From NCBI GenBank assembly GCA_029259655.1, contig JAJDET010000376.1, forward strand, positions 1-64,000: a stretch of 64,000 nucleotides of DNA, in the 5' to 3' direction. The notes beneath the pieces were generated by a model that saw only the letters and a list, made by a program, of their open reading frames with translations, made no database searches and was not told the origin of the DNA. Below are positions 12,035-54,045 of the stretch, piece by piece. The position numbers and the translations under genes are program-made. Source of the stretch: Planctomycetota bacterium (GTDB taxonomy: Bacteria > Planctomycetota > UBA1135 > GCA-002686595). Position 1 is the stretch's first letter; every line of letters starts with the position of its first letter.

Positions 12035-12107
12035 GGGTCTCAAGCATAGCTGGCGATGCACCGGACTTTTAATCCGGACAAGCCGCGTTCGATTCGCGGG
12101 GGGCCCA
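12035..12107 (+). tRNA. tRNA-Lys (anticodon TTT)
   Basis: A full cloverleaf can be drawn. The acceptor stem GGGTCTC pairs with GGGGCCC, two pairs being G-U. D arm GCAT/ATGC has loop AGCTGGCG. Anticodon stem CCGGA/TCCGG has loop CTTTTAA, anticodon TTT. Variable loop ACAAG. T arm CCGCG/CGCGG has loop TTCGATT. Discriminator base A; CCA is not encoded. It sits at the end of the plus-strand block, directly before a strong hairpin. Confidence 0.95.
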
Positions 12108-41374: not shown

Positions 41375-41507
41375 TCCGCGGAGCCGCGCGCCGCCCCCCT
41401 CGGGCCGGCGGCGCCCCCTCCGATGGAGGGGGGCCCCCGCCGCGGCGACCCAAGGGCCGCCGACAGCGAGGATGTCGAGGTCTGGCTCTCAGGTCTCGCC
41501 TCGACAC
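41375..41507 (-). ncRNA. Possible leftward non-coding transcript from the strongest promoter
   Basis: The gene-free stretch 41224-41535 contains no convincing gene on either strand. On the minus strand it starts with TGTCGAGG...CCTCGACA (8 bp stem) and then CCCCCTCC-ATC-GGAGGGGG (8 bp stem, 3-base loop), flanked by further GC pairing. With the consensus promoter at 41512-41539 this suggests a structured RNA. The 3' end is not visible; no U tract is present. Confidence 0.4.
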
Positions 41508-41511
41508 CCCC

Positions 41512-41539
41512 ATTATACGGTGATCACCGCGGATGTCAA
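41512..41539 (-). promoter_or_regulatory. Consensus promoter-operator module facing a gene-free region
   Basis: -35 TTGACA and -10 TATAAT are both perfect, 16 bp apart, with the perfect palindrome CGGTGATCACCG (41518-41529). The stop of the 41874-41536 gene lies in the -35 box. No minus-strand gene lies downstream. Confidence 0.9.
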
Positions 41540-41874
41540 GGGGAATCCGAAGTTTCTCTTTCTTCGTTCCATTCCCGCTCCATGGCCCGGGAGGCGGTCT
41601 CGTCTGGATCCGCCGGCGGCCGAGCCGGCAGGAGCCGGTAGCCGACGGCGCGCCGCTGCATGATGCGGCCGCAGGCGGCGCACGCGATCCCGTGCTCCAT
41701 CTGGCCGTGTTCGTCGGCCAGACTGCATTGCCCGAGGGCGGCGCGGAGTTCTTCCCGTTCGGGCCGTTCCGCTCCCCGCTCGAATTCGGGGGTGGTCAGG
41801 GTATCGACGCGCCTCAGGAGCGCCGCGGCCGCGCGTTCGATGCGGCTCGCGCGGGTCTCTTTCAGGTCTGGCAT
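41536..41874 (-). CDS. Zinc-binding hypothetical protein
   Basis: 112 residues from MPDLKETRASRIERAAAALL; AGAGGAGAAC precedes the ATG 28 bases after its -10 box. An upstream in-frame Met would lie inside the promoter and is rejected. IACAACGRIMQRRAV holds a CxxC. Its leader GGACCTAAGAGGAGAA matches the antisense linker at 45873 in 14 of 16 positions. Confidence 0.7.
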   Translation of the reverse strand: MPDLKETRASRIERAAAALLRRVDTLTTPEFERGAERPEREELRAALGQCSLADEHGQMEHGIACAACGRIMQRRAVGYRLLPARPPADPDETASRAMEREWNEERETSDSP

Positions 41875-43571: not shown

Positions 43572-43599
43572 TTGTGTTCTGCGGCGATCACCGTATAAT
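43572..43599 (+). promoter_or_regulatory. Promoter-operator module of the 43626 gene
   Basis: -35 TTGTGT, 16-bp spacer with CGGCGATCACCG (43582-43593), -10 TATAAT. Starts 4 bases after the terminator. Confidence 0.9.
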
Positions 43600-43625
43600 G
43601 GGGGTGGACCAACGAGGAGAACATC

Positions 43626-44114
43626 ATGCACCGAAGCAGTGACTTCAATTCCCATTCCATGCGGAACCACGACGGGCTGATTCTCGTCATGGACGCGAGC
43701 ACGGCGCACCTTTCCCTGGACGACGCGCGCAAGCTCGGCGGTCACTCGGGCAAGGTCGACGTGACCCTGATCGGGTTCGGGAAGCAACGGACCTTCACCT
43801 GCTCCAAGTTCGACGCGGAGGCCATGACGGAGGCGGTGAAGAAGGCCGACCCCAAGGCCTTCCAATTCGCGCGGGTCTTCACCGAGTTTCCCGCGTCGGT
43901 GGACAAGGTCCACGACGAGGTGAGCACGTCGCTCGTGATCGAGCACCACGAGTTCGGGTGGTGGATCTACGTGTCCGACCCCGAGGATATCGAGGGCGCG
44001 GGGTGCCCGAGCCTGATTCCCGTCATGGAGAAGGCCGCCCGGCTCGGAGCCCGGTGGGTCAAGTTCGACTGTGACGCAATGAAGCACGCCGATCTTCCCG
44101 AGCACGAGTGGTAG
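43626..44114 (+). CDS. DUF5983-like protein
   Basis: 162 residues. VMDASTAHLSLDDARKL at the N-terminus, an FGWWIYVSDPEDIE block and a C-terminus VKFDCDAMKHADLPEHEW fit the DUF5983 family, found on plasmids and phages often beside ArdC and DUF2958. Function unknown. Leader GGACCAACGAGGAGAAC. Confidence 0.78.
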   Translation: MHRSSDFNSHSMRNHDGLILVMDASTAHLSLDDARKLGGHSGKVDVTLIGFGKQRTFTCSKFDAEAMTEAVKKADPKAFQFARVFTEFPASVDKVHDEVSTSLVIEHHEFGWWIYVSDPEDIEGAGCPSLIPVMEKAARLGARWVKFDCDAMKHADLPEHEW

Positions 44115-44145
44115 GCGGGGGGCCACCGCCGGCCCTGGCAGACAG

Positions 44146-44174
44146 TCGCGGCCTTGCGGCTGCCGCGATTCTTC
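44146..44174 (+). terminator. Intrinsic terminator
   Basis: TCGCGGC, 9-base loop, GCCGCGA, then TTCTT. The 5' arm includes part of an ACAGTCGC copy (44142-44149). Confidence 0.65.
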
Positions 44175-44186
44175 CCAACTGATCCC

Positions 44187-44214
44187 TTGAACTTCGCGGC
44201 GATCACCGTACAAT
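44187..44214 (+). promoter_or_regulatory. Promoter-operator module of the 44243 gene
   Basis: -35 TTGAAC, 16-bp spacer with CGGCGATCACCG (44197-44208), -10 TACAAT. Confidence 0.9.
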
Positions 44215-44242
44215 GGCGGTGGACCAACGAGGAGAACCAATC

Positions 44243-44770
44243 ATGGGCGAACGCGCATACACAAGCTTCCGAATTCACCCGGACGACATCGAGAACGCGG
44301 CCCCCTTCCTGGAAGGGGAGTTGGGCGGAGAGATGACCGCGGACGCGATCCGTTCCGGTAGGTGCTCCGATGGCGAGGACGAGCCCGGAAGGATCATCGA
44401 GGTCGAGGGAAACTACGGCCTGACTTCCCTCCGCGACAGGATGGCGGTCGCCGGGGTCCGGTTCTACGGGGAGCACGGCGCGTGCACGGGGGCATTCCCG
44501 GCGAGCAGCTACTTCTCTGACGGGACCGTGCTGCACGAGACTTCCGTCGACGATGACGGCAACCCGTCGGTGAGTCTGTCCCTCCCGCACGGATCTGATC
44601 CGGGGGTTCTCCTCTGGGACTCCTACGCGCCGCCGCAGGTGGTGGGGCTGGACGCTCTTCAGGAGTGGGTCCGCGGTGCCTTCCAGGCGCGGCGCTCGAT
44701 CGACACCGCGTGGAAGGTCCGGATCGCGAAGGATGAGAGACGCCGAGGAATCGGCGATCTGATCCCTTGA
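44243..44770 (+). CDS. Hypothetical protein
   Basis: 175 residues from MGERAYTSFRIHPDDIENAA; GAGGAGAACC leader. Acidic alpha/beta protein (GEHGACTGAFPASSYFSDGT; PQVVGLDALQEWVRGAF). Stop TGA is part of the next -35 box. No family recognised. Confidence 0.72.
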   Translation: MGERAYTSFRIHPDDIENAAPFLEGELGGEMTADAIRSGRCSDGEDEPGRIIEVEGNYGLTSLRDRMAVAGVRFYGEHGACTGAFPASSYFSDGTVLHETSVDDDGNPSVSLSLPHGSDPGVLLWDSYAPPQVVGLDALQEWVRGAFQARRSIDTAWKVRIAKDERRRGIGDLIP

Positions 44771-44794
44771 ATTCCGCGGCGATCACCGTATAAT
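44767..44794 (+). promoter_or_regulatory. Promoter-operator module of the 44823 gene
   Basis: -35 TTGAAT, 16-bp spacer with CGGCGATCACCG (44777-44788), -10 TATAAT; overlaps the previous stop. Confidence 0.92.
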
Positions 44795-44822
44795 GGTGGT
44801 GGACCTTACAGAGGAGATCATC

Positions 44823-45230
44823 ATGGGCTGGTACTACACCTACGGTGCGTCGCGGAAGAGTCTTTCCGACGAGATCTTGCGGGAGTTCAACTGGGAGACT
44901 CCCACGGGCAAGTCGGAAAACCTCCGGCACTGCTTTCGCGGGAACGTGCTTTGGACTCTCAATCGGACGGTCAAGCGCGCGAGCGGCACGGAGACCGTCT
45001 GGATCGGATGCCACCTGCTTTCCCGCGGCACGGGCGACGGGTGGGGCTACAAGCCGATGGACGAGTCCATGGGCCCCTTCTACTACACTTGCCCCAAGTC
45101 CTACTTGGACGCGTCTACCTGCAACGACAGTAGCGCGCCTAAGTGGCGGGCGGACTGCCTGGAGGTGCAGACGCAGAGGCTGGCACGGCTCCGAGCGCGG
45201 CGCCTCCGTCGGGCGGGAGCGCCGGTCTGA
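44823..45230 (+). CDS. DUF6927-like protein
   Basis: 135 residues. The start MGWYYTYGASRKSLSDEI and later WIGCHLL, YKPMDESMGPFYYTCP resemble a conserved plasmid/phage family (DUF6927-type) whose members begin MGWYYTxGATRxD. Function unknown. C-terminus is Arg-rich. Confidence 0.7.
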   Translation: MGWYYTYGASRKSLSDEILREFNWETPTGKSENLRHCFRGNVLWTLNRTVKRASGTETVWIGCHLLSRGTGDGWGYKPMDESMGPFYYTCPKSYLDASTCNDSSAPKWRADCLEVQTQRLARLRARRLRRAGAPV

Positions 45231-45249
45231 AAAGAATCGCCGCGGGGGG

Positions 45250-45277
45250 TTGAACTTCGCGGCGATCACCGTACAAT
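45250..45277 (+). promoter_or_regulatory. Promoter-operator module of the 45305 gene
   Basis: -35 TTGAAC, 16-bp spacer with CGGCGATCACCG (45260-45271), -10 TACAAT. Confidence 0.9.
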
Positions 45278-45304
45278 GATGGTGGACCAACGAGGAGAAC
45301 CACC

Positions 45305-45841
45305 ATGAGAGACGAGATTCAAGCGTGGAAGTGCCGAGGCTTCTGTGGGGGCTGGTTCCTCCACGAGGACATCTTCTTCGGGGCCGAGAGCGCGACTCTC
45401 GGCGAGTGCCCGGAGTGCGGGGACGAGGCGGGGGTGCGGACGGGGTTCGTGGCGCTGGAGGGGTTCTCCGGCAATTCCAACTTCCGGCCGGCCAAGATGG
45501 CCGTGGCCCTCGTGGACAGCGGCACGGCCGAGAGGCTCCTGGCCCGGATGGCCCGGCTCCAGGTGATGCGCAACGAGGACGATCCGCCGGAGTCGATCTC
45601 GTTCGACCGACCCACGGTGGATTGGATTCCGGCAGAGGCGGACGGAGAGCCGGACTACGCGCTCCACGTCTCGAAGGAGGTCCCGGTTCTCCGGGTGGAC
45701 GACGAGTCCTGCGAGGTGATGGGCTACAAGGCCCACCCGGGCGCGGAATCGAGTGAGTGCGTTCGCTTCCGGGCGGTCTGGGGCGACGAGGACATCCACA
45801 CCGCCGCGCTGAGTCGCGAAGACTTGGCCGGCATGATCTGA
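45305..45841 (+). CDS. Hypothetical protein with N-terminal zinc site
   Basis: 178 residues. CRGFCGGW and CPECGDEAG near the N-terminus form a likely zinc ribbon; the rest is alpha/beta (VALVDSGTAERLLARMARLQ). GAGGAGAACC leader. Its 3' UTR carries the second hairpin/anti-leader/terminator element. Confidence 0.72.
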   Translation: MRDEIQAWKCRGFCGGWFLHEDIFFGAESATLGECPECGDEAGVRTGFVALEGFSGNSNFRPAKMAVALVDSGTAERLLARMARLQVMRNEDDPPESISFDRPTVDWIPAEADGEPDYALHVSKEVPVLRVDDESCEVMGYKAHPGAESSECVRFRAVWGDEDIHTAALSREDLAGMI

Positions 45842-45857
45842 CAAAATGGCGAGGGCG

Positions 45858-45940
45858 GGGGCTTGGAGCCCCTTCTCCTCAAAGGTCCGCGGCCCCCGTC
45901 GTAAAGCTGACTCGCTCGGCGACGGGGGCCGTCTTTATTG
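45858..45940 (+). ncRNA. 3'-UTR element: hairpin, anti-leader linker, terminator
   Basis: Hairpin GGGGCT-TGG-AGCCCC (45858-45872), an unpaired linker TTCTCCTCAAAGGTCC (45873-45888), then a 12-bp perfect terminator stem CGGCCCCCGTCG/CGACGGGGGCCG with TCTTTATT. The linker is antisense to GGACCTTGAGGAG (leader of the 42013 gene) with one bulged base, and to GGACCTAAGAGGAGAA (leader of the 41874 gene) with two mismatches. Same design as the 50637 RNA but without its own promoter, so release by processing is assumed. Confidence 0.6.
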
Positions 45941-45963
45941 GTTTCGAGCCCGGAGACAGTCGC

Positions 45964-46080
45964 ATGCGACTCTTCTGCCTGATCTGCGCTCGACTGATCG
46001 AGCACGTCAAGAGCAAGCGACACCCGGAGCTGTGGGACTGCTCCCGATGCGGCCGCACGCGTTCCGAGGATTCCACTTGA
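45964..46080 (+). CDS. 38-residue zinc-ribbon protein
   Basis: MRLFCLICARLIEHVKSKRH then WDCSRCGR: two CxxC pairs, a minimal zinc ribbon. GGAGACAGTCGC precedes the ATG. Stop TGA lies in the next -35 box. Probably expressed by read-through or an unseen promoter after the terminator. Confidence 0.65.
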   Translation: MRLFCLICARLIEHVKSKRHPELWDCSRCGRTRSEDST

Positions 46081-46104
46081 AGTCTGCGGCGATCACCGTA
46101 TAAT
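46077..46104 (+). promoter_or_regulatory. Promoter-operator module of the 46130 gene
   Basis: -35 TTGAAG, 16-bp spacer with CGGCGATCACCG (46087-46098), -10 TATAAT; overlaps the previous stop. Confidence 0.92.
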
Positions 46105-46129
46105 GGTGGCGGACCTACAGGAGACCACC

Positions 46130-46381
46130 ATGCCAAACCAATCACCGGCGGCAGCGCCGAGCGCGTGGACCGCGTGCTCTGAGAAGTGCCAAGGCTACTT
46201 CGTCTCGTCTTGTGAGAGCACGCAGCATGCCCCCCTGGAGTTGCAGGCCTGCCATGACTGCGAGCGCTTCATCGGCGAGTGCGGCGCGGTCGATGACGGC
46301 GCCGCGGCCGTGCAGTTCGTCCGTGACCTGGAGGACGGGAAGCCGCACGCGATCGCCATGGCCCGGGAGCTGCTCCCATGA
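46130..46381 (+). CDS. Small Cys-rich protein
   Basis: 83 residues from MPNQSPAAAPSAWTACSEKC. CSEKC, a CESTQ Cys, CHDC and CGAV suggest a metal site. Leader GGACCTACAGGAGACC. Stop overlaps the next ATG. Confidence 0.68.
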   Translation: MPNQSPAAAPSAWTACSEKCQGYFVSSCESTQHAPLELQACHDCERFIGECGAVDDGAAAVQFVRDLEDGKPHAIAMARELLP

Positions 46382-46488
46382 TCGACGACCGGAGCAAGTG
46401 CAGGCACCTGCACATCGCCGGCCTGTTCTTGCTGGGGCTCTTCATCTGGCCCTGGCTCCTCTGGAAATGGGCGAGCAACAGGGGTTGA
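46378..46488 (+). CDS. 36-residue membrane protein
   Basis: MIDDRSKCRHLHIAGLFLLG continues as a single hydrophobic, Trp-rich span (LFIWPWLLWKW). ATGA overlap with the previous gene, and the stop TGA is the TGA of the next -35 box. Confidence 0.65.
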   Translation: MIDDRSKCRHLHIAGLFLLGLFIWPWLLWKWASNRG

Positions 46489-46512
46489 CTTCCGCGGCGA
46501 TCACCGTATAAT
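46485..46512 (+). promoter_or_regulatory. Promoter-operator module of the 46540 gene
   Basis: -35 TTGACT, 16-bp spacer with CGGCGATCACCG (46495-46506), -10 TATAAT; overlaps the previous stop. Confidence 0.92.
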
Positions 46513-46539
46513 CATGGTGGACCAACAAGGAGAACCGCC

Positions 46540-46872
46540 ATGAAACTCATTCCCGACGACACCGAGATCCCCGCGCTCTACTCCCAGGACGGGGAGGGCC
46601 TCGATGCGATCTGCCACATCAAGTTGTTCAACCCGTGCGGGGCCGCGACGTGGCTCCTCACCGAGCTGAGCCCCGACAGGGAGCTGGCCTTCGGCTACTG
46701 CTTCCTCGGCCACGACGTCGGCGAGCCCGAGCTGGGCTACGTGTCGATTCCCGAGCTGGAAGGGCTTGTTCTCCCCCTCCGCGGGCTGAGCATCGAGCGA
46801 GACATCCACTTCACCCCGAAGCCGCTCCGGGAGGCCATCGCGGACCAGCCCGGCATGGAGGTGCCGGCGTGA
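46540..46872 (+). CDS. DUF2958 protein
   Basis: 110 residues. MKLIPDDTEIPAL, CHIKLFNPCGAATWLLTELS, FGYCFLGHDVGEPELGYVS and ERDIHFTPKPL are hallmarks of DUF2958, a plasmid/phage family frequently linked to ArdC antirestriction genes. Function unknown. ArdC lies 1.3 kb downstream here. Confidence 0.88.
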   Translation: MKLIPDDTEIPALYSQDGEGLDAICHIKLFNPCGAATWLLTELSPDRELAFGYCFLGHDVGEPELGYVSIPELEGLVLPLRGLSIERDIHFTPKPLREAIADQPGMEVPA

Positions 46873-47481: not shown

Positions 47482-47822
47482 GCTGGCCGCGAAAACAAAC
47501 GGGGAGGGGGGGTCATTTCCTGGCCCGCCTTCTCTGGGACCGAAACTCAGTTTGCCGGGTGGCACACAGGCGCATGGTCAACCGTCTGCGGAGATTCACC
47601 CGGCCTCGGCGCGCCGGCTACCAGGAGCTGCTCGAGGAGAAGACTCGCATCGCCTGCGTGGATGAGCTCGACGAGGATCAGCTCCTCCGGTTGCGTGAGA
47701 TCAACACGGAGCTCGGCTGGGGATCTCCCTATGTCCTCACAGTCGAGGAGGAGCTGGAGCTGGAGCGTCTCGCAGACGAGATCCTGGACGAGGTGCTGGA
47801 GAAGAGGGGTTTGCAGGGCTGA
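47478..47822 (+). CDS. Hypothetical protein, basic then acidic
   Basis: 114 residues: Arg-rich first half (MVNRLRRFTRPRRAGYQ), acidic helical second half (VEEELELERLADEILDEVLE). The first codons contain a GGGGAGGGGGGGTCATTT motif shared with three other sites. Confidence 0.65.
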   Translation: MSWPRKQTGRGGHFLARLLWDRNSVCRVAHRRMVNRLRRFTRPRRAGYQELLEEKTRIACVDELDEDQLLRLREINTELGWGSPYVLTVEEELELERLADEILDEVLEKRGLQG

Positions 47823-48163
47823 AAGGGCGACACGTACAGTCGCAAAGCTCAGCAGAATATAGGCCGGCCGGCCCTCCCCCCGCGCGCGCCGCGCCGTGCG
47901 TGCGACGCACGCCGAAGGCGCACGTGATAGGGAGACACGGCGGCCCCGGGCCCGCGCCGGGCCGACCCCGTCGGGCCGATCGGCGCCCTGGTACCTTGCC
48001 GGTGATTTGCCGGGGCCCGGGGCCATCCGCGCTCACCATCATTCTACCGCGTGCGGCGATCACCGCAAGGGGAAAAGAAAGAATCGGATTCCCTCTTGTG
48101 CAAGTGCGGCGATCACCGTATATTCAGGGAGTCAGAAACAACCCCAACCCGAAAGGACCTACC
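47823..48163. other. Gene-free, GC-rich stretch with repeat, hairpins and an operator
   Basis: Holds copy 3 of the 33-bp repeat (47829-47862), a CGTGCGT/ACGCACG hairpin near 47895, a long GGC/GCC-rich segment, and a solitary operator CGGCGATCACCG (48054-48065) whose surrounding -10/-35 are poor. The promoter of the ArdC gene is at its right end. No gene seen. Confidence 0.55.
48096..48124 (+). promoter_or_regulatory. Promoter-operator module (17-bp type) of the ArdC gene
   Basis: -35 TTGTGC, 17-bp spacer with CGGCGATCACCG (48107-48118), -10 TATATT. Confidence 0.87.
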
Positions 48164-49072
48164 ATGGCAAAGCAGACTCAGGCCGAACTCTACGCCGCGA
48201 TCAACGCGCGGGTCATCGAATCCATGCGCAAGGGAGTCGTCCCGTGGCGGAAACCGTGGGCCGGGCTCGGCATGCCGCGGAACGCGGCCACGGGCCGACC
48301 CTACCGCGGCATCAACGCCGTCCTTTTGTCCCTGGAACCGTTCCCCGGCTCCCCCCGCTTCCTGACGTTCAATCAGGCGCGGAGCGCGGGCGGCATGGTG
48401 CGCAAGGGCGAGAAGTCAATTCAGGTCATCCTCTGGAAGCCTCTGAAGATCAAGGACGACAAGGCCCCGAAGGGGGAGAAGGTCATCCCCCTGATGCGGA
48501 CGTTCAACGTCTTTCACACCTCCCAGTGTGACGACCTGCCCGAGCGGATGACCGCGGAGCCCCGGGCGAACGCGGACCCCACGGTAGGACTCGCCGAAGG
48601 GGACCGGATCCTGGCCGAGTACGTGGCCGGCGGCCCGACCCTGACCTACGGCGGCGATCGCGCGTGCTACTCGCCGGCTCTGGATACGATCCGGCTCCCC
48701 GAGCGGTCCGCGTTCGTGACGGGCGCGGCGTTCTTCGGGGTCGCGTTCCACGAGTGTGGACACTCGACCGGGCACGCTACCCGGCTCAAGCGCGATCTGA
48801 CCGGCCTGCACGGGGACCACAGCTACAGCCGGGAGGAGCTGGTGGCGGAGATGACCGCGGCGTTCGTTCTCGGCGCGGCCGGGATCGACACTCCGGACAC
48901 GGTCGAGAACACTGCCGCCTATCTCCGGTGCTGGACGAGCACCCTGGCGGACGATACGAAGGCTCTGGTGTGGGCCGCGGGCCGCGCGCAGAAGGCGGCC
49001 GATATGGTCCTCGGCATCGAGGTGCCCGGGGCCGCGAAGCCCGAGCCCAAGCCGGCGACCGCGGCCGCGTAG
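48164..49072 (+). CDS. ardC: ArdC-like antirestriction protein
   Basis: 302 residues. The N-terminal domain (AAINARVIESMRKGVVPWRK, PYRGINAVLLSL, MVRKGEKSIQVILWK) is the ArdC single-stranded-DNA-binding domain. A zincin-like domain follows with HECGH at residues ~196-200 and EELVAEMTAAF downstream. ArdC proteins protect incoming plasmid or phage DNA from restriction enzymes. Leader AGGACCTACCATG. An upstream in-frame extension would cross the promoter and is rejected. Confidence 0.9.
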   Translation: MAKQTQAELYAAINARVIESMRKGVVPWRKPWAGLGMPRNAATGRPYRGINAVLLSLEPFPGSPRFLTFNQARSAGGMVRKGEKSIQVILWKPLKIKDDKAPKGEKVIPLMRTFNVFHTSQCDDLPERMTAEPRANADPTVGLAEGDRILAEYVAGGPTLTYGGDRACYSPALDTIRLPERSAFVTGAAFFGVAFHECGHSTGHATRLKRDLTGLHGDHSYSREELVAEMTAAFVLGAAGIDTPDTVENTAAYLRCWTSTLADDTKALVWAAGRAQKAADMVLGIEVPGAAKPEPKPATAAA

Positions 49073-49171
49073 GGCGCGGGCCCGCCGGGGCCGCCCGCCC
49101 GCGGGGCGCCCGGCGCGCGCCTGTAGGCTCGCACTCGGCGCGGAGCGTCGAAAAAAGATCGGGGATCCCTC

Positions 49172-49200
49172 TTGCGTAGTGCGGCGATCGCCGATATACT
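49172..49200 (+). promoter_or_regulatory. Promoter-operator module (17-bp type) of the 49239 gene
   Basis: -35 TTGCGT, 17-bp spacer with perfect palindrome CGGCGATCGCCG (49182-49193), -10 TATACT. Confidence 0.87.
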
Positions 49201-49238
49201 CAGGGAGTCAAATCAACCCCTGACCCCGAGGACCTACC

Positions 49239-49619
49239 ATGAACGCCATCGACTACCGCCCCTCGCCCGTGACCCTGACCGTCAACCGTCTCCGCGCCCA
49301 GATCGGCGAGGCCTTGGAGGACCGCACGAGCTACGCCCACGTCGTGGCGGACCGGGTCCTGGCCGGGGACGATATCCAGGTCGTCCGCGGCATCCTGGCC
49401 GTCATGGCCCCGACCCTCGGCGCGAACGCGGCCGGGATGGCCGGCAATTGGGAGTCTCCGGAATGGTCGGGCGATCGCTGGCTCGAATTCGGGGACGGGT
49501 CCATCCTGTCGGACGACGGGGAGCGCGCGTACTGCTTCGAGGATACCGCCGATCTTGCGCGCCAAGAGCGCGAGGACGCGCGCGAGGAATTCATCCTCGG
49601 CGGGCCCGGAGCGCGGTAG
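49239..49619 (+). CDS. Acidic hypothetical protein
   Basis: 126 residues from MNAIDYRPSPVTLTVNRLRA. Acidic C-terminal half (WLEFGDGSILSDDGERAYCF) is a possible DNA-mimic type feature, but this is weak. Leader GAGGACCTACCATG. Confidence 0.7.
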   Translation: MNAIDYRPSPVTLTVNRLRAQIGEALEDRTSYAHVVADRVLAGDDIQVVRGILAVMAPTLGANAAGMAGNWESPEWSGDRWLEFGDGSILSDDGERAYCFEDTADLARQEREDAREEFILGGPGAR

Positions 49620-49677
49620 GCCGGGGGGCCGCCGGGCCCGCGGGGCCCTCAGCCCGCGCCTGTACGCTCGGCTCTGG

Positions 49678-49691
49678 TGCAGGCGCCTGCA
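49678..49691. repeat. Perfect 14-bp palindrome TGCAGGCGCCTGCA
   Basis: One of two perfect copies (other at 33144); near copies at 17307, 28513, 46399, 53072 and 58760. Confidence 0.55.
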
Positions 49692-49710
49692 AAAGAATCC
49701 CGATTCCCTC

Positions 49711-49739
49711 TTGAGTAGTGCGGCGATCACCGCTATGAT
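49711..49739 (+). promoter_or_regulatory. Promoter-operator module (17-bp type) of the 49769 gene
   Basis: -35 TTGAGT, 17-bp spacer with CGGCGATCACCG (49721-49732), -10 TATGAT. Confidence 0.87.
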
Positions 49740-49768
49740 CAGGAGGTCAAGAATCGAAAGGACCTACC

Positions 49769-50509
49769 ATGATCGAAACACTCGAAGCCCCGACCGTTCC
49801 CGAATCCGGGATCCTGCTCATGACGCGCGATAGCGCGCGCGTGTTCTACTCCGCCGATCGCTGGCGGAGCCCCCATGATGGCCGGGAGGCCCAGCCGGGC
49901 CGCTGGCGGGAGCTGAACCGTATGGAGGTGGACGCGTTCATCCTCTGCTACGGGGACGCGTTCCCGAGCAGCCCCGGGGAGTGGGTGGACCTGGGAGAAT
50001 TCGCGGAGACCCGCGACGTCGCGACGTCCCTGGAAATCCTCAGCCATGCCGCCCTATGCGTCCACGCCAACGCGTGGGCGGACGCCACGGACGAATACGG
50101 GGACGGGGTCCGCGGGGAGGTCCTGGACCAGTGCGGCGAGCCGGGATACGAGGCTTGGGAGATCGCGGCCGCGTTCCTGGCCGGAGTCACCCGCGCGAAC
50201 CTTCGCAAGGCCGGGTCCCTGTCCCTTCCCCTTTCGATCGCGCTTCACTGGCGCGACGCGGCGAAGGAGCGCGCGACCAAGCTCTCCCACCGCGGGGACC
50301 GTGACCCGTCCGCGGAGACGTTCGGTCACTACCTCATGATGGAAGGCCTCGGACACGGAGTGTCCTGGGAGGACTCCGTGGGCGCGCCCCACGGGCTGGA
50401 CGTGCCTTATGTGTGCGGCGCCCTGTACGGGCCGGACGACGTGGGCGTGGGGGATCCCGTGGGCTGCATCCGTTGCGGGAAGGACGGTTGCGACGGAGTA
50501 CCGCACTAA
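49769..50509 (+). CDS. Hypothetical protein, 246 residues
   Basis: Acidic alpha/beta protein; a SLEILSHAALCVHANAWADA helix and a C-terminal IRCGKDGCDG Cys pair. Leader AGGACCTACCATG. No family recognised; placed next to ArdC it may belong to the same anti-defence set (inference). Confidence 0.72.
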   Translation: MIETLEAPTVPESGILLMTRDSARVFYSADRWRSPHDGREAQPGRWRELNRMEVDAFILCYGDAFPSSPGEWVDLGEFAETRDVATSLEILSHAALCVHANAWADATDEYGDGVRGEVLDQCGEPGYEAWEIAAAFLAGVTRANLRKAGSLSLPLSIALHWRDAAKERATKLSHRGDRDPSAETFGHYLMMEGLGHGVSWEDSVGAPHGLDVPYVCGALYGPDDVGVGDPVGCIRCGKDGCDGVPH

Positions 50510-50601
50510 GGCACGGAGCGCGCGAGGGGGGCGCCCGAGGCCCCGTCGGCGTGCGCCTGTGGGCTCGAGTCCGTATCTCCAGCGTTTCCAGCGGTTTGGG
50601 G

Positions 50602-50630
50602 TTGCTGAGTGCGGCGATCGGCGTTAAGTT
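50602..50630 (+). promoter_or_regulatory. Promoter of the orphan small RNA, degenerate operator
   Basis: -35 TTGCTG, 17-bp spacer with CGGCGATCGGCG (50612-50623, one base off the palindrome), -10 TAAGTT. Predicted start near 50637. Confidence 0.7.
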
Positions 50631-50636
50631 GGTCCA

Positions 50637-50738
50637 GCGGGGAAACCCGCGCAATCTGACAACCGCTCCGGGCCCCGCAAGGGCCCGGGATGGTAGGTCC
50701 TGGCCCCGGAGTGTGGTAGCTCCGGGGCCGCTTTACGT
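50637..50738 (+). ncRNA. Candidate anti-Shine-Dalgarno small RNA
   Basis: No coding frame. Hairpin 1 GCGGG-GAAA-CCCGC (50637-50650) starts at the predicted +1. Hairpin 2 is CCGGGCCC-CGCAA-GGGCCCGG (50668-50688). An unpaired linker holds ATGGTAGGTCCT (50690-50701). The terminator is GGCCCCGGAG-TGTGGTAG-CTCCGGGGCC (50702-50729) then GCTTTACG. The linker is the exact antisense of AGGACCTACCAT at 48154, 49229, 49759, 50920 and 51218 (10 of 12 at 51858). The terminator loop repeats TGGTAG. Expected effect: blocks ribosome binding on these mRNAs. Confidence 0.72.
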
Positions 50739-50929
50739 TCTAAGGCCTTTGTAAGATCCACCTTACGGATTGCGCCGATCATCGCATAGCGGCGATCACC
50801 GTAAAGCCTTGCCGCGCGTGCACTTGCAACTTTCTGCGGCGATCACCGCGTTATGGCACGCTTCCTGCTTTAGGTTGGGCGTTCTGTTCAACCCGGCCCC
50901 CTACGGGGGGCCCAACCCAAGGACCTACC
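50739..50929 (+). promoter_or_regulatory. Operator cluster upstream of the 50930 gene
   Basis: Three operator copies: CGCCGATCATCG (50773-50784), CGGCGATCACCG (50790-50801) and CGGCGATCACCG (50837-50848). The first has TTACGG/CATAGC at 16-bp spacing; the others lack good boxes. A GTAAG/CTTAC hairpin lies at ~50750. No gene here. Confidence 0.6.
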
Positions 50930-51133
50930 ATGTACCGCATCCACACCTACACCTACTCCGCGGCCGGCGCCCAGACCCGTCACGACGTTTCCGAGCCCGT
51001 GACCGGCGCCATGGCGGCCGCCCGGATCCGGCGCCAGCGGGAGCGCGGGAACCTCCGCCGCATCTCCCTGGCGGAGCCGGTGGAGATGGTCGAGTCGGAG
51101 CCCGTGGCCGGCCGATCCGTCGTCCACGCGTAA
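50930..51133 (+). CDS. Small basic protein
   Basis: 67 residues: beta start (MYRIHTYTYSAAGAQTR) and a basic helix (AARIRRQRERGNLRRI). Leader AGGACCTACCATG. No family recognised. Confidence 0.66.
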   Translation: MYRIHTYTYSAAGAQTRHDVSEPVTGAMAAARIRRQRERGNLRRISLAEPVEMVESEPVAGRSVVHA

Positions 51134-51227
51134 CCCGCGGCCCCTCGCCCCTCGGCGGGGGGTTCGGCGCCCGGGCCGGTTGAATCCGACCCGGACGCGG
51201 AACCCTCAAGCCCCGAAAGGACCTACC

Positions 51228-51461
51228 ATGAGCAATGCACACGCAACCCTGCCCGAACCCCCCGCGGCCGCCCGCGCCATCATCGGCACCACGGTCATCA
51301 TGAAGATGGCCGGGGTCATCATCACCGGCCCCATCGAGTGGACCGGCATCGGGCTGGTCGTGCGTCCCCTGGAGGCCGTCTCCACGGATTCCGACGGCAT
51401 CGCCGCGGATATCGCCGGGATCGCCGACGGGGTCCTGTACGACCCGGACGCGGTCCTGTAG
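51228..51461 (+). CDS. Small hydrophobic/acidic protein
   Basis: 77 residues from MSNAHATLPEPPAAARAIIG; Ile/Gly-rich middle (VIMKMAGVIITGPIEWTGIG) and an acidic tail. Leader AGGACCTACCATG. A TTGAAT lies upstream at 51179 but no -10 or operator, so it is probably co-transcribed with the gene before. Confidence 0.65.
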   Translation: MSNAHATLPEPPAAARAIIGTTVIMKMAGVIITGPIEWTGIGLVVRPLEAVSTDSDGIAADIAGIADGVLYDPDAVL

Positions 51462-51576
51462 GGGGCCGCGGGGCCGGGGGCCCTGGCCCCTGGCAGGAGT
51501 CGCGCCGAGCGCGGCAGACAGTCGCGGGCCGCGCCGTTGCGGGCCGCTGGAATCTCTCACCCGGAAGGATCGACCG

Positions 51577-51819
51577 ATGGCCGCTAACGAACCCCCCAAA
51601 GCCTTGACCCGTGACGACGTGACGCACCTGTTCTACCGCGCGCGGGAGACCGTGGACCGCGCGGGGGATGAACTCCTGGCGGAGGTCATCCGGAACACTG
51701 CCGGGGTCCTTCAGGATCGCATGATGGCGCGGGGGTCGGGGTGGAATCCTCAATCCCGCCTCATGATGCGCGCGATGGAGATCGTGGCAATCGCGATGGA
51801 GATCGAGGAAACCTCTTGA
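51577..51819 (+). CDS. Small helical protein
   Basis: 80 residues; GGAAGGATCGACCG precedes the ATG (not the antisense-matched leader). Helical throughout (DDVTHLFYRARETVDRAGDE). Stop TGA lies in the next -35 box. Confidence 0.66.
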   Translation: MAANEPPKALTRDDVTHLFYRARETVDRAGDELLAEVIRNTAGVLQDRMMARGSGWNPQSRLMMRAMEIVAIAMEIEETS

Positions 51820-51844
51820 ATCCTTGCGGCGATCACCGTACAAT
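51816..51844 (+). promoter_or_regulatory. Promoter-operator module (17-bp type) of the 51870 gene
   Basis: -35 TTGAAT, 17-bp spacer with CGGCGATCACCG (51827-51838), -10 TACAAT; overlaps the previous stop. Confidence 0.9.
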
Positions 51845-51869
51845 CAGAGCAACCGAAAGGACCTACCTC

Positions 51870-52313
51870 ATGAGCACTGAAACCATCACCCCCGAACGCG
51901 CGCGCGCCCTGATTCTCGGATCCTCTGGCCGCCTGTTCTCCGTCACGTTCTACCGCAAGACCGCCAAGCGGGCCGGCGGGATCACCACGGCCGAAGTCAA
52001 CGACCCGCGCACCATGCGCGCGATCCTCGGCGAGCGCACCCGCAAGGGTCTGGCCGGCGGCCCCTCGGCCTACCGTCCCCAGGATCACGGGCTGGTCTGG
52101 GTCTACACCATGGCCGGGGACCAGAGCCGGAAGGAAGACGCGCGCTTCCGCCGATCGATCCCCACGGACGCGGTCACGTCCCTGACCCTCGGCGGGGTGA
52201 CCTACAACGTGACCGGGAGCCCGTGGCCGGAGCCGGCCCCCAAGCGGGCGCGCCGGACGGCCGCGCGGGACGCGTACGCGGGCACGGGATCCACGGACGG
52301 AGAGAAGCCTTGA
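51870..52313 (+). CDS. Hypothetical protein, SH3-like/plasmid type
   Basis: 147 residues. LFSVTFYRKTAKRAGGITTA, then DHGLVWVYTMAG and IPTDAVTSLTLGGVTYNV resemble a compact beta-barrel protein also seen on plasmids (WYL-independent). Basic C-terminus. Leader AGGACCTACC then TCATG. Function unknown. Confidence 0.68.
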   Translation: MSTETITPERARALILGSSGRLFSVTFYRKTAKRAGGITTAEVNDPRTMRAILGERTRKGLAGGPSAYRPQDHGLVWVYTMAGDQSRKEDARFRRSIPTDAVTSLTLGGVTYNVTGSPWPEPAPKRARRTAARDAYAGTGSTDGEKP

Positions 52314-52672
52314 GCGAGGAAGCCCCGCGGGAGGCCCCGGCGCTCCCGCCCCTGGCCGCGCCGGTCACCGGCCCGGTCCGGGCTCTGGTCCTGGCCCGGT
52401 GCATTCTCCCGCGAGCCCTGTATCGGGTCCTGGCCCCTCGGGCCTTGTCCTGGACCGTGGGCCGGCGCCTACGCTCCCGCGGCCGATGGCTCGCCCGCGT
52501 GGCGATCTTCCGGGGCCGGGCGATTGTGGAGAAGCAGCGCGCGACGTATCTGGCCGCGGTGGCGAAAGCGGTGGCCGCGGAGGAAGCCGCGGAGAAGGAG
52601 AAGGCGGAGCGCGCGGAGAAGCGCAAGCAACGGCGCGAGGAGCGGGAGCGGGAGGTTTACCCGTTCGCATGA
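52310..52672 (+). CDS. Basic coiled-coil protein, TTG start
   Basis: 120 residues. TTG overlaps the previous TGA (TTGA). Arg/Leu-rich first half, then a Lys/Glu/Ala coiled coil (VAAEEAAEKEKAERAEKRKQ). No family recognised. Confidence 0.58.
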   Translation: MSEEAPREAPALPPLAAPVTGPVRALVLARCILPRALYRVLAPRALSWTVGRRLRSRGRWLARVAIFRGRAIVEKQRATYLAAVAKAVAAEEAAEKEKAERAEKRKQRREEREREVYPFA

Positions 52673-53554
52673 TGGCCGGCGAGCCGGGCCCGCGGCCCGC
52701 GCGCCGCGCCGCCCGCGCCTGTCCGCTCGAGCTCGTCGCGGCGGGGGAATCGTCTCGGCGGAGATCGCCGGGCCGGTCAGGGTTCCCGGGGATGAGAGCC
52801 CCCAGCCCACGGCGTACAGTCGCCTCCCGCCCTCTGGGGGGCCTCCCATAGGGGGGCCTCCCTGCACCCCCCACCCATGGGGCCTCCCTATGCTCCCCCC
52901 TCAGGTACCCTCCCACAGGGGGGCCTATGGAGGGGGGCTATCGGGGGAGCCTATGTGCAGGCCTCCCCTACGCAAGGGAGGGGGAGGGGGCCATGTGTAG
53001 GTTTCAACGTGCACGCGCGTGTGGTCACCCCGTACAGGGGGCAGGGGGGCAGGGTACGTGGGGCAGCGTAGTGCAGGCGCATGCACAGGGGTGCCCTGTA
53101 CAGGGGTGCCTGAGTGGGTGATATCACACACACATAGGTGCATATGCGTACACACATAAGCATATGGAGAGCGGGTCATTTATATGCGCATGGTATGTAG
53201 GTGGGGGGTACATATGCGCACGCAACGAATGATTCATGCGTACATACACGCACGATTCTCAAATCAAACCCGCAGTAACCCCGTGTGTTTTTGACCCGTA
53301 ATTCAGCTATTACCGAATTCCTTAGGGGCAACCCGAACGGATTTTCGCTACCGAAAAGTGCGTAACCTCTACTGTCGAAGGGGTTTACCCTAAAAAATTT
53401 TCGGGGGCAAAAGCGGCCCCCTCCCCCTCGGACCAGTCATCGGTGACCAGTGAGCGTCGGGGATGCTGGGCAGCGCTGGGGATGCTCGTGACCGGGGAGC
53501 ATCGGGGGCGCTGGGGGATGCTCGAAGAGCTCGAGATCGGGTAGGCTGGGGGGC
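52673..53554. other. 880-bp gene-free low-complexity and AT-rich stretch
   Basis: 52.68-52.8 kb: GC-rich, with a GCGCCTGT copy. 52.83-53.0 kb: repeated GGGGGGCCTCCC-type palindromes. 53.02-53.11 kb: CCCTGTACAGGG palindromes and TGCAGGCGCATGCA. 53.12-53.27 kb: alternating purine-pyrimidine DNA with repeated CATATGCG and ATGCGTACA. 53.27-53.4 kb: AT-rich, ending AAAAAATTTT. No gene. The make-up suits an origin, attachment or recombination site; none can be proved here. Confidence 0.6.
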
Positions 53555-53758
53555 ATGAGTGTCCCAGAGATCTCCGAGGCGGATGTCGAGCGCTTCAACC
53601 GAGCTGTGAAGGACGTGAAGCCCGGTGAGCTTGCGAAGAGCCCTGCGCTGCAGAGGCTGGTCGAGGACGTTCAGGGGCTCTCGAGGGAACCTGCTGATCC
53701 AGCGGACGGTCCGGTCGGCTACAACCGGATCCACAACCGGCACAACCGAGGCCGATGA
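53555..53758 (+). CDS. Small hypothetical protein
   Basis: 67 residues: MSVPEISEADVERFNRAVKD, helical, with a His/Arg/Asn-rich end. TAGGCT lies 7 bases upstream of ATG, a possible weak leaderless promoter. Coupled (ATGA) to the DUF6527-like gene. Confidence 0.63.
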   Translation: MSVPEISEADVERFNRAVKDVKPGELAKSPALQRLVEDVQGLSREPADPADGPVGYNRIHNRHNRGR

Positions 53759-54045
53759 GCGTTCCTCTGATCAAGTCCGTCCGTCACCGCCCTGTCGACG
53801 GGCCTGAGGAGGCGTGGTGGGTCTTCCACTGCCCGGGGTGCGAGGAGATCCACCAGTTCGATCCGAGGTGGACCAGGAGCGGTCCTAAGAGCTCGCCGAC
53901 GTTCTCCCCTTCCCTCGTGACGAAGGTCAACGTCCAGGGGGACGTCTGCCATCTCTACGTGCGGGAGGGCCGGATTCAGTTCCTCGACGACTCTCACCAC
54001 GAGCTCGCGGGTCAGACGGTCCCGATGCTGCCGGTAGACTGGTAG
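53755..54045 (+). CDS. DUF6527-like protein
   Basis: 96 residues. WWVFHCPGCEEIHQF, SSPTFSPSLVTKV, CHLYVREGRIQFLDDSHHEL and AGQTVPMLPVDW match DUF6527, a small zinc-ribbon phage protein of unknown function. Confidence 0.86.
   Translation: MSVPLIKSVRHRPVDGPEEAWWVFHCPGCEEIHQFDPRWTRSGPKSSPTFSPSLVTKVNVQGDVCHLYVREGRIQFLDDSHHELAGQTVPMLPVDW

Follow-up and report, generated by a model that had tools for sequence, protein, structure and literature searches.

Organization of the gene block and its phage

The window (bases 1-64000 of a 157,355-bp contig, part of a 6.4-Mb assembly of 376 contigs) contains a block of genes that start behind one and the same short leader. The 12-mer AGGACCTACCAT is present in five + strand copies, each forming the segment from the Shine-Dalgarno (SD) sequence to the start codon of a gene, and in a single antisense copy, ATGGTAGGTCCT. 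These counts (five sense, one antisense) are the same in the 6.4-Mb assembly and in the complete phage contig; the five starts and their complement had been claimed from a reading of the sequence alone. Gene 48164-49072 encodes an ArdC-like product with ArdcN and MPTase-PolyVal domains. At a sixth gene, 51870, the sequence is AGGACCTACC and the start is shifted; the 10-base match also claimed there is present. The five leaders have the core AGGACCTACCATG in common but diverge further upstream, so that the antisense stretch covers almost exactly the invariant part; the bases flanking the 12-mer differ on both sides, so that the shared match extends no further and does not belong to a larger inverted repeat. 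The features of the leaders and of the spacer that carries the antisense copy are as follows.

48154..48165, +, target leader of the ArdC-like gene 48164-49072, exact 12-mer
49229..49240, +, target leader of gene 49239-49619, exact 12-mer
49759..49770, +, target leader of gene 49769-50509, exact 12-mer, leader itself structured
50602..50630, +, promoter of the unit: -35 TTGCTG (50602-50607), 17-nt spacer, -10 TAAGTT (50625-50630); weak
50611..50623, +, degenerate operator GCGGCGATCGGCG (family GCGGCGATCACCG) in the promoter spacer
50637..50738, +, predicted non-coding RNA of ~100 nt, from folding; 5' end placed from the -10 hexamer
50637..50650, +, hairpin 1, GCGGG-GAAA-CCCGC, from folding
50658..50699, +, hairpin 2 (core 50667-50689), lengthened where GACAACCG pairs with some bases of the antisense stretch
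50690..50701, +, antisense stretch ATGGTAGGTCCT, exactly complementary to the common leader
50701..50738, +, hairpin 3, terminator-like: stem 50701-50730 of 12 pairs with TGGTAG in its loop, then a weak tail, CTTTACGTTC
50920..50931, +, target leader of gene 50930-51133, exact 12-mer
51218..51229, +, target leader of gene 51228-51461, exact 12-mer
51858..51867, +, partial target ahead of gene 51870-52313, 10-base match

The contig has a terminal direct repeat of 141 bp, so that it maps as a circle. It encodes a terminase, portal, capsid-like virion protein, contractile tail sheath and DNA polymerase, along with 38 tRNA genes, a content that identifies it as a myophage. A tyrosine integrase was looked for on the contig without success. 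The tRNA genes (L064:5479-15945, and 12035-12107 in the window) cover nearly all amino acids, and among them, behind an operator-promoter, stands a gene (L064:6542-8284) with a product matching phrog_850, a PHROG family named RNA-binding protein. Over the whole contig, the palindrome CGGYGATCRCCG lies between the -35 and -10 hexamers of some 30 or more promoters and represents a phage-wide operator system. On the - strand at 41500-41540, the promoter closest to consensus in the phage (TTGACA-17-TATAAT, with an operator) is followed by GC-rich inverted repeats and not by any convincing gene; it possibly serves another non-coding RNA. A second leader family, approximately GGTGGACCAACGAGGAGAACCACCATG, follows the operator-promoters of another block (43581-46542; also contig 137843-138693, L067), and no antisense partner for it was found in a plausible transcribed unit. 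Downstream of the block genes an element, GCGCCTGTNNGCTCG, is repeated (49110-49135, 49650-49675, 50545-50570 and 52710-52735).

Relatives in which stretch and leaders might covary were sought at several levels. At the nucleotide level, 47801-53800 had no blastn match among 50,697 phage records, and the terminase search found no relative. Searches with the 246-aa neighbour protein led to two distant loci, both without operators or leaders. The major capsid protein matched proteins of Streptomyces and other phages at ~32%, and beyond these only short contigs (best 68%, L072, 7.8 kb). Sheath and capsid searches of GTDB genomes returned nothing, a capsid profile run on 154 genomes of the class gave distant matches only, and the operator and leader patterns retrieved 0, 1 and 14 stretches from IMG/VR with no relative among them. 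Across the phage-record, GTDB and IMG/VR searches, then, neither the unit nor its block yielded a homologue, and for this reason the same design was sought in other phages. Two cassettes with a promoter and the leader GAGAAAGGACCTACCATG stand on an unrelated viral contig of 40% GC (L115:4780-5330), where 13.6 kb contain no antisense copy of that leader.

Predicted fold and pairing of the intergenic unit

In the unit at 50602-50738 the promoter lies ~50 nt past the 3' element GCGCCTGTNNGCTCG (which also follows other genes of the block), at the position where a gene cassette would have its own. The orphan promoter of the local operator family that was proposed there is in register with TTGCGT-17-TATACT of gene 49239 and TTGAGT-17-TATGAT of gene 49769, and has the operator GCGGCGATCGGCG in its spacer. 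It is a weak member, however, with 3/6 consensus bases per hexamer and one operator half-site broken; it falls below the score cut-off of the phage promoter list and is missed by a consensus scan. Three hairpins are predicted downstream, in agreement with the sequence-only reading, and the second TGGTAG noted in the last loop is correct; the third hairpin, with its weak T-tail, is terminator-like. Rfam has no family match to the unit at gathering score, the only hit in the window being a tRNA.

The segment 50602-50738 folds better than 200 of 200 shuffled sequences (z -3.9). Contrary to the view that the antisense stretch is the only long unpaired part of the RNA, it is predicted to be mostly paired with the upstream GACAACCG for each of four plausible 5' ends, and to open it would cost 7.2-7.9 kcal/mol (about 7.8). 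The string GACAACC resembles GACCUACC of the leaders, which suggests that the RNA may carry a built-in mimic of its target.

Three other readings of the spacer were considered and set aside: a minus-strand ribosome binding site (RBS), where no start codon is suitably spaced from AGGACCTACCATC; a tiny ORF (MVGPGPGVW) from 50690, which has no proper SD; and a role for GTTGGTCC (50628-50635), the complement of GGACCAAC in the second leader family, which precedes the presumed 5' end of the RNA.

Predicted interactions were ranked over 221 phage gene starts, with accessibility counted on both sides and only perfect helices allowed. The five best starts (50930, 51228, 48164, 49239 and 51870; -10.4 to -7.0 kcal/mol) are five of the six with block leaders. 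The sixth, 49769, is weaker (-3.5 kcal/mol) and has a higher predicted cost of opening the target; thus net pairing is strongest at the leader at 50920 and weakest at 49759. While the block leaders rank at the top, the net energies are no better than those of GC-rich shuffles: dinucleotide-shuffled units have a mean of 5.4 targets at or below -8 kcal/mol, the real unit 4. Since shuffled sequences reach similar energies, the energy alone is unremarkable, and what is remarkable is the specificity. In co-folding the six leaders have ddG values of -12.6, -9.4, -5.9, -13.6, -10.6 and -9.6, while those of five control leaders lie between -2.1 and -6.9, and 11-12 linker bases are placed in an intermolecular helix with all six. 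When the linker is scrambled, this pairing is lost in the three leaders tried and the values (-3.7 to -5.1) are at control level. The predicted preference, then, is for the duplex with all six leaders, in which the sequestered stretch is opened.

Explanations for the antisense copy

The most likely explanation, which we hold to be probably but by no means certainly correct, is that an antisense RNA acts in trans to damp the gene block through its common start leader. On this explanation 50602-50738 would be a small phage transcription unit making a structured non-coding RNA of ~100 nt. Its stretch ATGGTAGGTCCT would pair in trans with the identical SD-to-AUG leaders of five neighbouring genes, the ArdC-like one among them, and with a poorer match to that of a sixth; the pairing would displace GACAACCG, with the duplex as the predicted preferred state. 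The duplex would mask the RBS together with the first two bases (AU) of the start codon, so that translation of five or six block genes would be lowered together. Transcription, repression in trans and the physiological role are what we infer from the sequence. That one RNA serves all the shared leaders was the central proposal of the sequence-only reading; target ranking and co-folding leave it the best explanation. It is further favoured by the exact match to five starts, unique in the assembly and with a low chance expectation, by the in-register promoter, the terminator-like end and the stable fold, and by the analogy with Adephagia among unrelated phages. The weak promoter with its degenerate operator, the predicted pairing of the antisense stretch within the RNA and the shuffle-like energies count against it. 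The preferred role is damping or shut-off of an accessory block under shared control, since a single operator family serves the RNA and its targets alike. The timing switch from early to later expression that had also been suggested as a possibility is hinted at solely by a comparable arrangement in Adephagia-type mycobacteriophages (see below).

The main rival, which we consider unlikely, is that a piece of leader was copied in inverted orientation into the spacer and survives there as a relic, the hairpins being the terminator region of the upstream gene and no regulatory RNA being made. A weak promoter with a degenerate operator would fit such a history, as would a block built from repeated cassettes and an antisense stretch that is sequestered in the predicted fold. 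However, the match ends exactly at the SD-to-AU segment and has carried no flanking leader sequence along with it, in the inverted orientation there is no start codon, and an in-register promoter stands where a cassette promoter would.

Distinctly less probable is a leader or attenuator acting in cis, where the unit is the 5' part of a longer transcript into gene 50930, with a regulated terminator and a stretch able to fold onto the AGGACCTACCAT copy at 50920. Gene 50930 is indeed the next one downstream and has the strongest predicted pairing, and the arms of hairpin 2 are partly complementary in sequence to those of the terminator. Yet an operator-promoter at 50836 separates the unit from gene 50930, transcription would have to cross the terminator-like hairpin, and the same target is present in four further, distant leaders.

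A GC-rich hairpin region could also contain the complement of the 12-mer by chance. Isolated coincidences do occur, as seen at 70276, where the opposite strand of a tRNA gene has a 12-base antisense match to three other repeated leaders (those of the 43-45 kb block), and the GC-rich unit itself has a few other, unrelated antisense matches of 12-14 bases in the contig. Under a first-order Markov model of the phage intergenic DNA, however, the expected number of copies of the 12-mer is 2.4e-6 for the unit and 0.0015 for the intergenic DNA as a whole, both strands counted, or ~0.015 if any of about ten leader 12-mers would have been accepted, and the antisense copy sits within the very block that it matches; we regard coincidence as very improbable. 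As little credit is given to an RNA that acts as a sponge or protector, titrating a host RNA or a leader-reading protein and so raising expression: nothing specific points to it, although conservation of the leader would also suit a protein-binding site, as is allowed for the start-associated sequence (SAS) of mycobacteriophages (PMC3203893), and the stretch is the complement of the leader, not a copy, so that as RNA it cannot mimic a site on the sense strand.

Comparison with other antisense RNAs and with SAS phages

Small antisense RNAs that lower phage gene expression include the sar RNA of P22 and the OOP RNA of lambda. These are encoded opposite a single target, whereas the RNA proposed here is encoded next to its targets and would act on them in trans. 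Among bacterial small RNAs, RsaE masks the SD regions of several mRNAs. FnrS likewise pairs with several mRNAs over the SD or start (as cited in PMC12197685). Both of these are encoded by the host and have dispersed targets, in contrast to phage neighbours with one repeated leader. Closer in kind is the c4 RNA of P1 and P7, a short, structured antisense RNA that acts in trans around the RBS of a phage mRNA (PMC12197685, PMC8546580); that of P1 has 77 bases, according to a title in the reference list of PMC12197685. The unit here is similarly complementary to phage mRNA RBSs (12/12 bases at five starts). There are differences: c4 pairs with ant mRNA, while the RNA here has five or six matching leaders; processing is described for c4, while the unit here has its own predicted promoter and terminator; and in c4 the complementary sequence is likely in a loop (PMC12197685), while in the unit it is mostly paired.

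The leaders have their nearest counterpart in the SAS/ESAS systems known from cluster K mycobacteriophages (PMC3203893) and Microbacterium phages of cluster EF (PMC7302621). SAS is an unusually conserved 13-bp sequence from RBS to start before many non-structural genes; it is preceded by SigA-like promoters with an inverted repeat, and its conservation exceeds what pairing to 16S rRNA would require (PMC3203893, PMC7302621). Either an RNA or a protein is allowed by the authors as its reader (PMC3203893). In the present phage, AGGACCTACCATG is exact at five starts with a 10-base core at the sixth, and CGGYGATCRCCG lies between the -35 and -10 hexamers ahead of most genes in the block, as it does at other places in the phage. 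The cluster EF consensus GGGAAAGGACCCC resembles CGAAAGGACCTACC here. Sequences and phages are nevertheless unrelated, and since the cluster K and EF sequences, GGGATAGGAGCCC and GGGAAAGGACCCC, differ from CGAAAGGACCTACC, the system here works like SAS/ESAS and is not a member of it. The sequence-only reading named no described phage system of this design. The pieces do have precedent, in SAS/ESAS and in antisense RNA of the c4 type, so that their combination is a plausible variant; the combination itself, one RNA with a repeated start leader, was not found in the open-access literature (most subscription journals lie outside this).

A single inverted SAS in a structured non-coding region is present in Anaya (in a 385-nt gap before gp97, L087:39871-39883), Angelica, Peanam, Validus, Enkosi and Adephagia (in the gap between genes 92 and 93, L125:1383-1395). 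At up to 2 mismatches there is none away from gene starts in ZoeJ or Pixie, nor any in the stretch of Microbacterium phage AnnaSerena that was read, and a motif search for cluster EF gave unrelated phages only. Some SAS phages thus have no inverted copy, and the design is not universal. In the homologous gap of 13 aligned K phages, 5 keep the string, 2 (Ekdilam and Unicorn) have pyrimidine-rich variants and 6 lack it; an anti-SAS RNA common to the whole cluster was rejected, as only 5/13 keep the string. The fold of the seven with string or variant has 19 pairs, only one of which shows a two-sided change. The inverted-SAS parallel is real but restricted to certain lineages.

In K1-type mycobacteriophages the single inverted SAS occupies the loop of a long hairpin within a non-coding gap. 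That of Adephagia, CCUCCUAUCC, is an open 10-nt loop with a predicted opening cost of 0.03 kcal/mol and a duplex energy with SAS of -14.6. As a caveat, we take this loop to resemble the anti-SD of 16S rRNA as well. Late transcription of Adephagia starts between genes 92 and 93, by RNA-seq (PMC11373665). If the late transcript includes this hairpin, it could silence the early SAS genes.

A tentative generalization, which we would not put beyond the doubtful, is that some phages provide neighbouring genes with one start-associated leader and a dedicated 'anti-start' RNA that silences them all, that this arose independently here and in K1-type mycobacteriophages, and that the late transcript of Adephagia could serve to shut off the early SAS genes. 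The usual account of phage gene-expression programmes is one of transcription factors and sigma switches; if the generalization is true, a single RNA acting on a repeated start sequence would form a compact post-transcriptional regulon, and would be a candidate answer to the question of what reads the conserved SAS, described in mycobacteriophages in 2011. With the K1 arrangement, this question can be put to the test in the laboratory, in phage Adephagia grown on M. smegmatis mc2 155.

The Anaya gap has a further arrangement (L087:39740-39850), found also in the homologous gaps of other phages (L090-L101): a promoter-like TTGRCG...TTTTAGACT, a hairpin AGCACAACTGTGC and a terminator-like hairpin. 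It is conserved in most of the 13 cluster K phages, and looks like a small RNA or a late leader.
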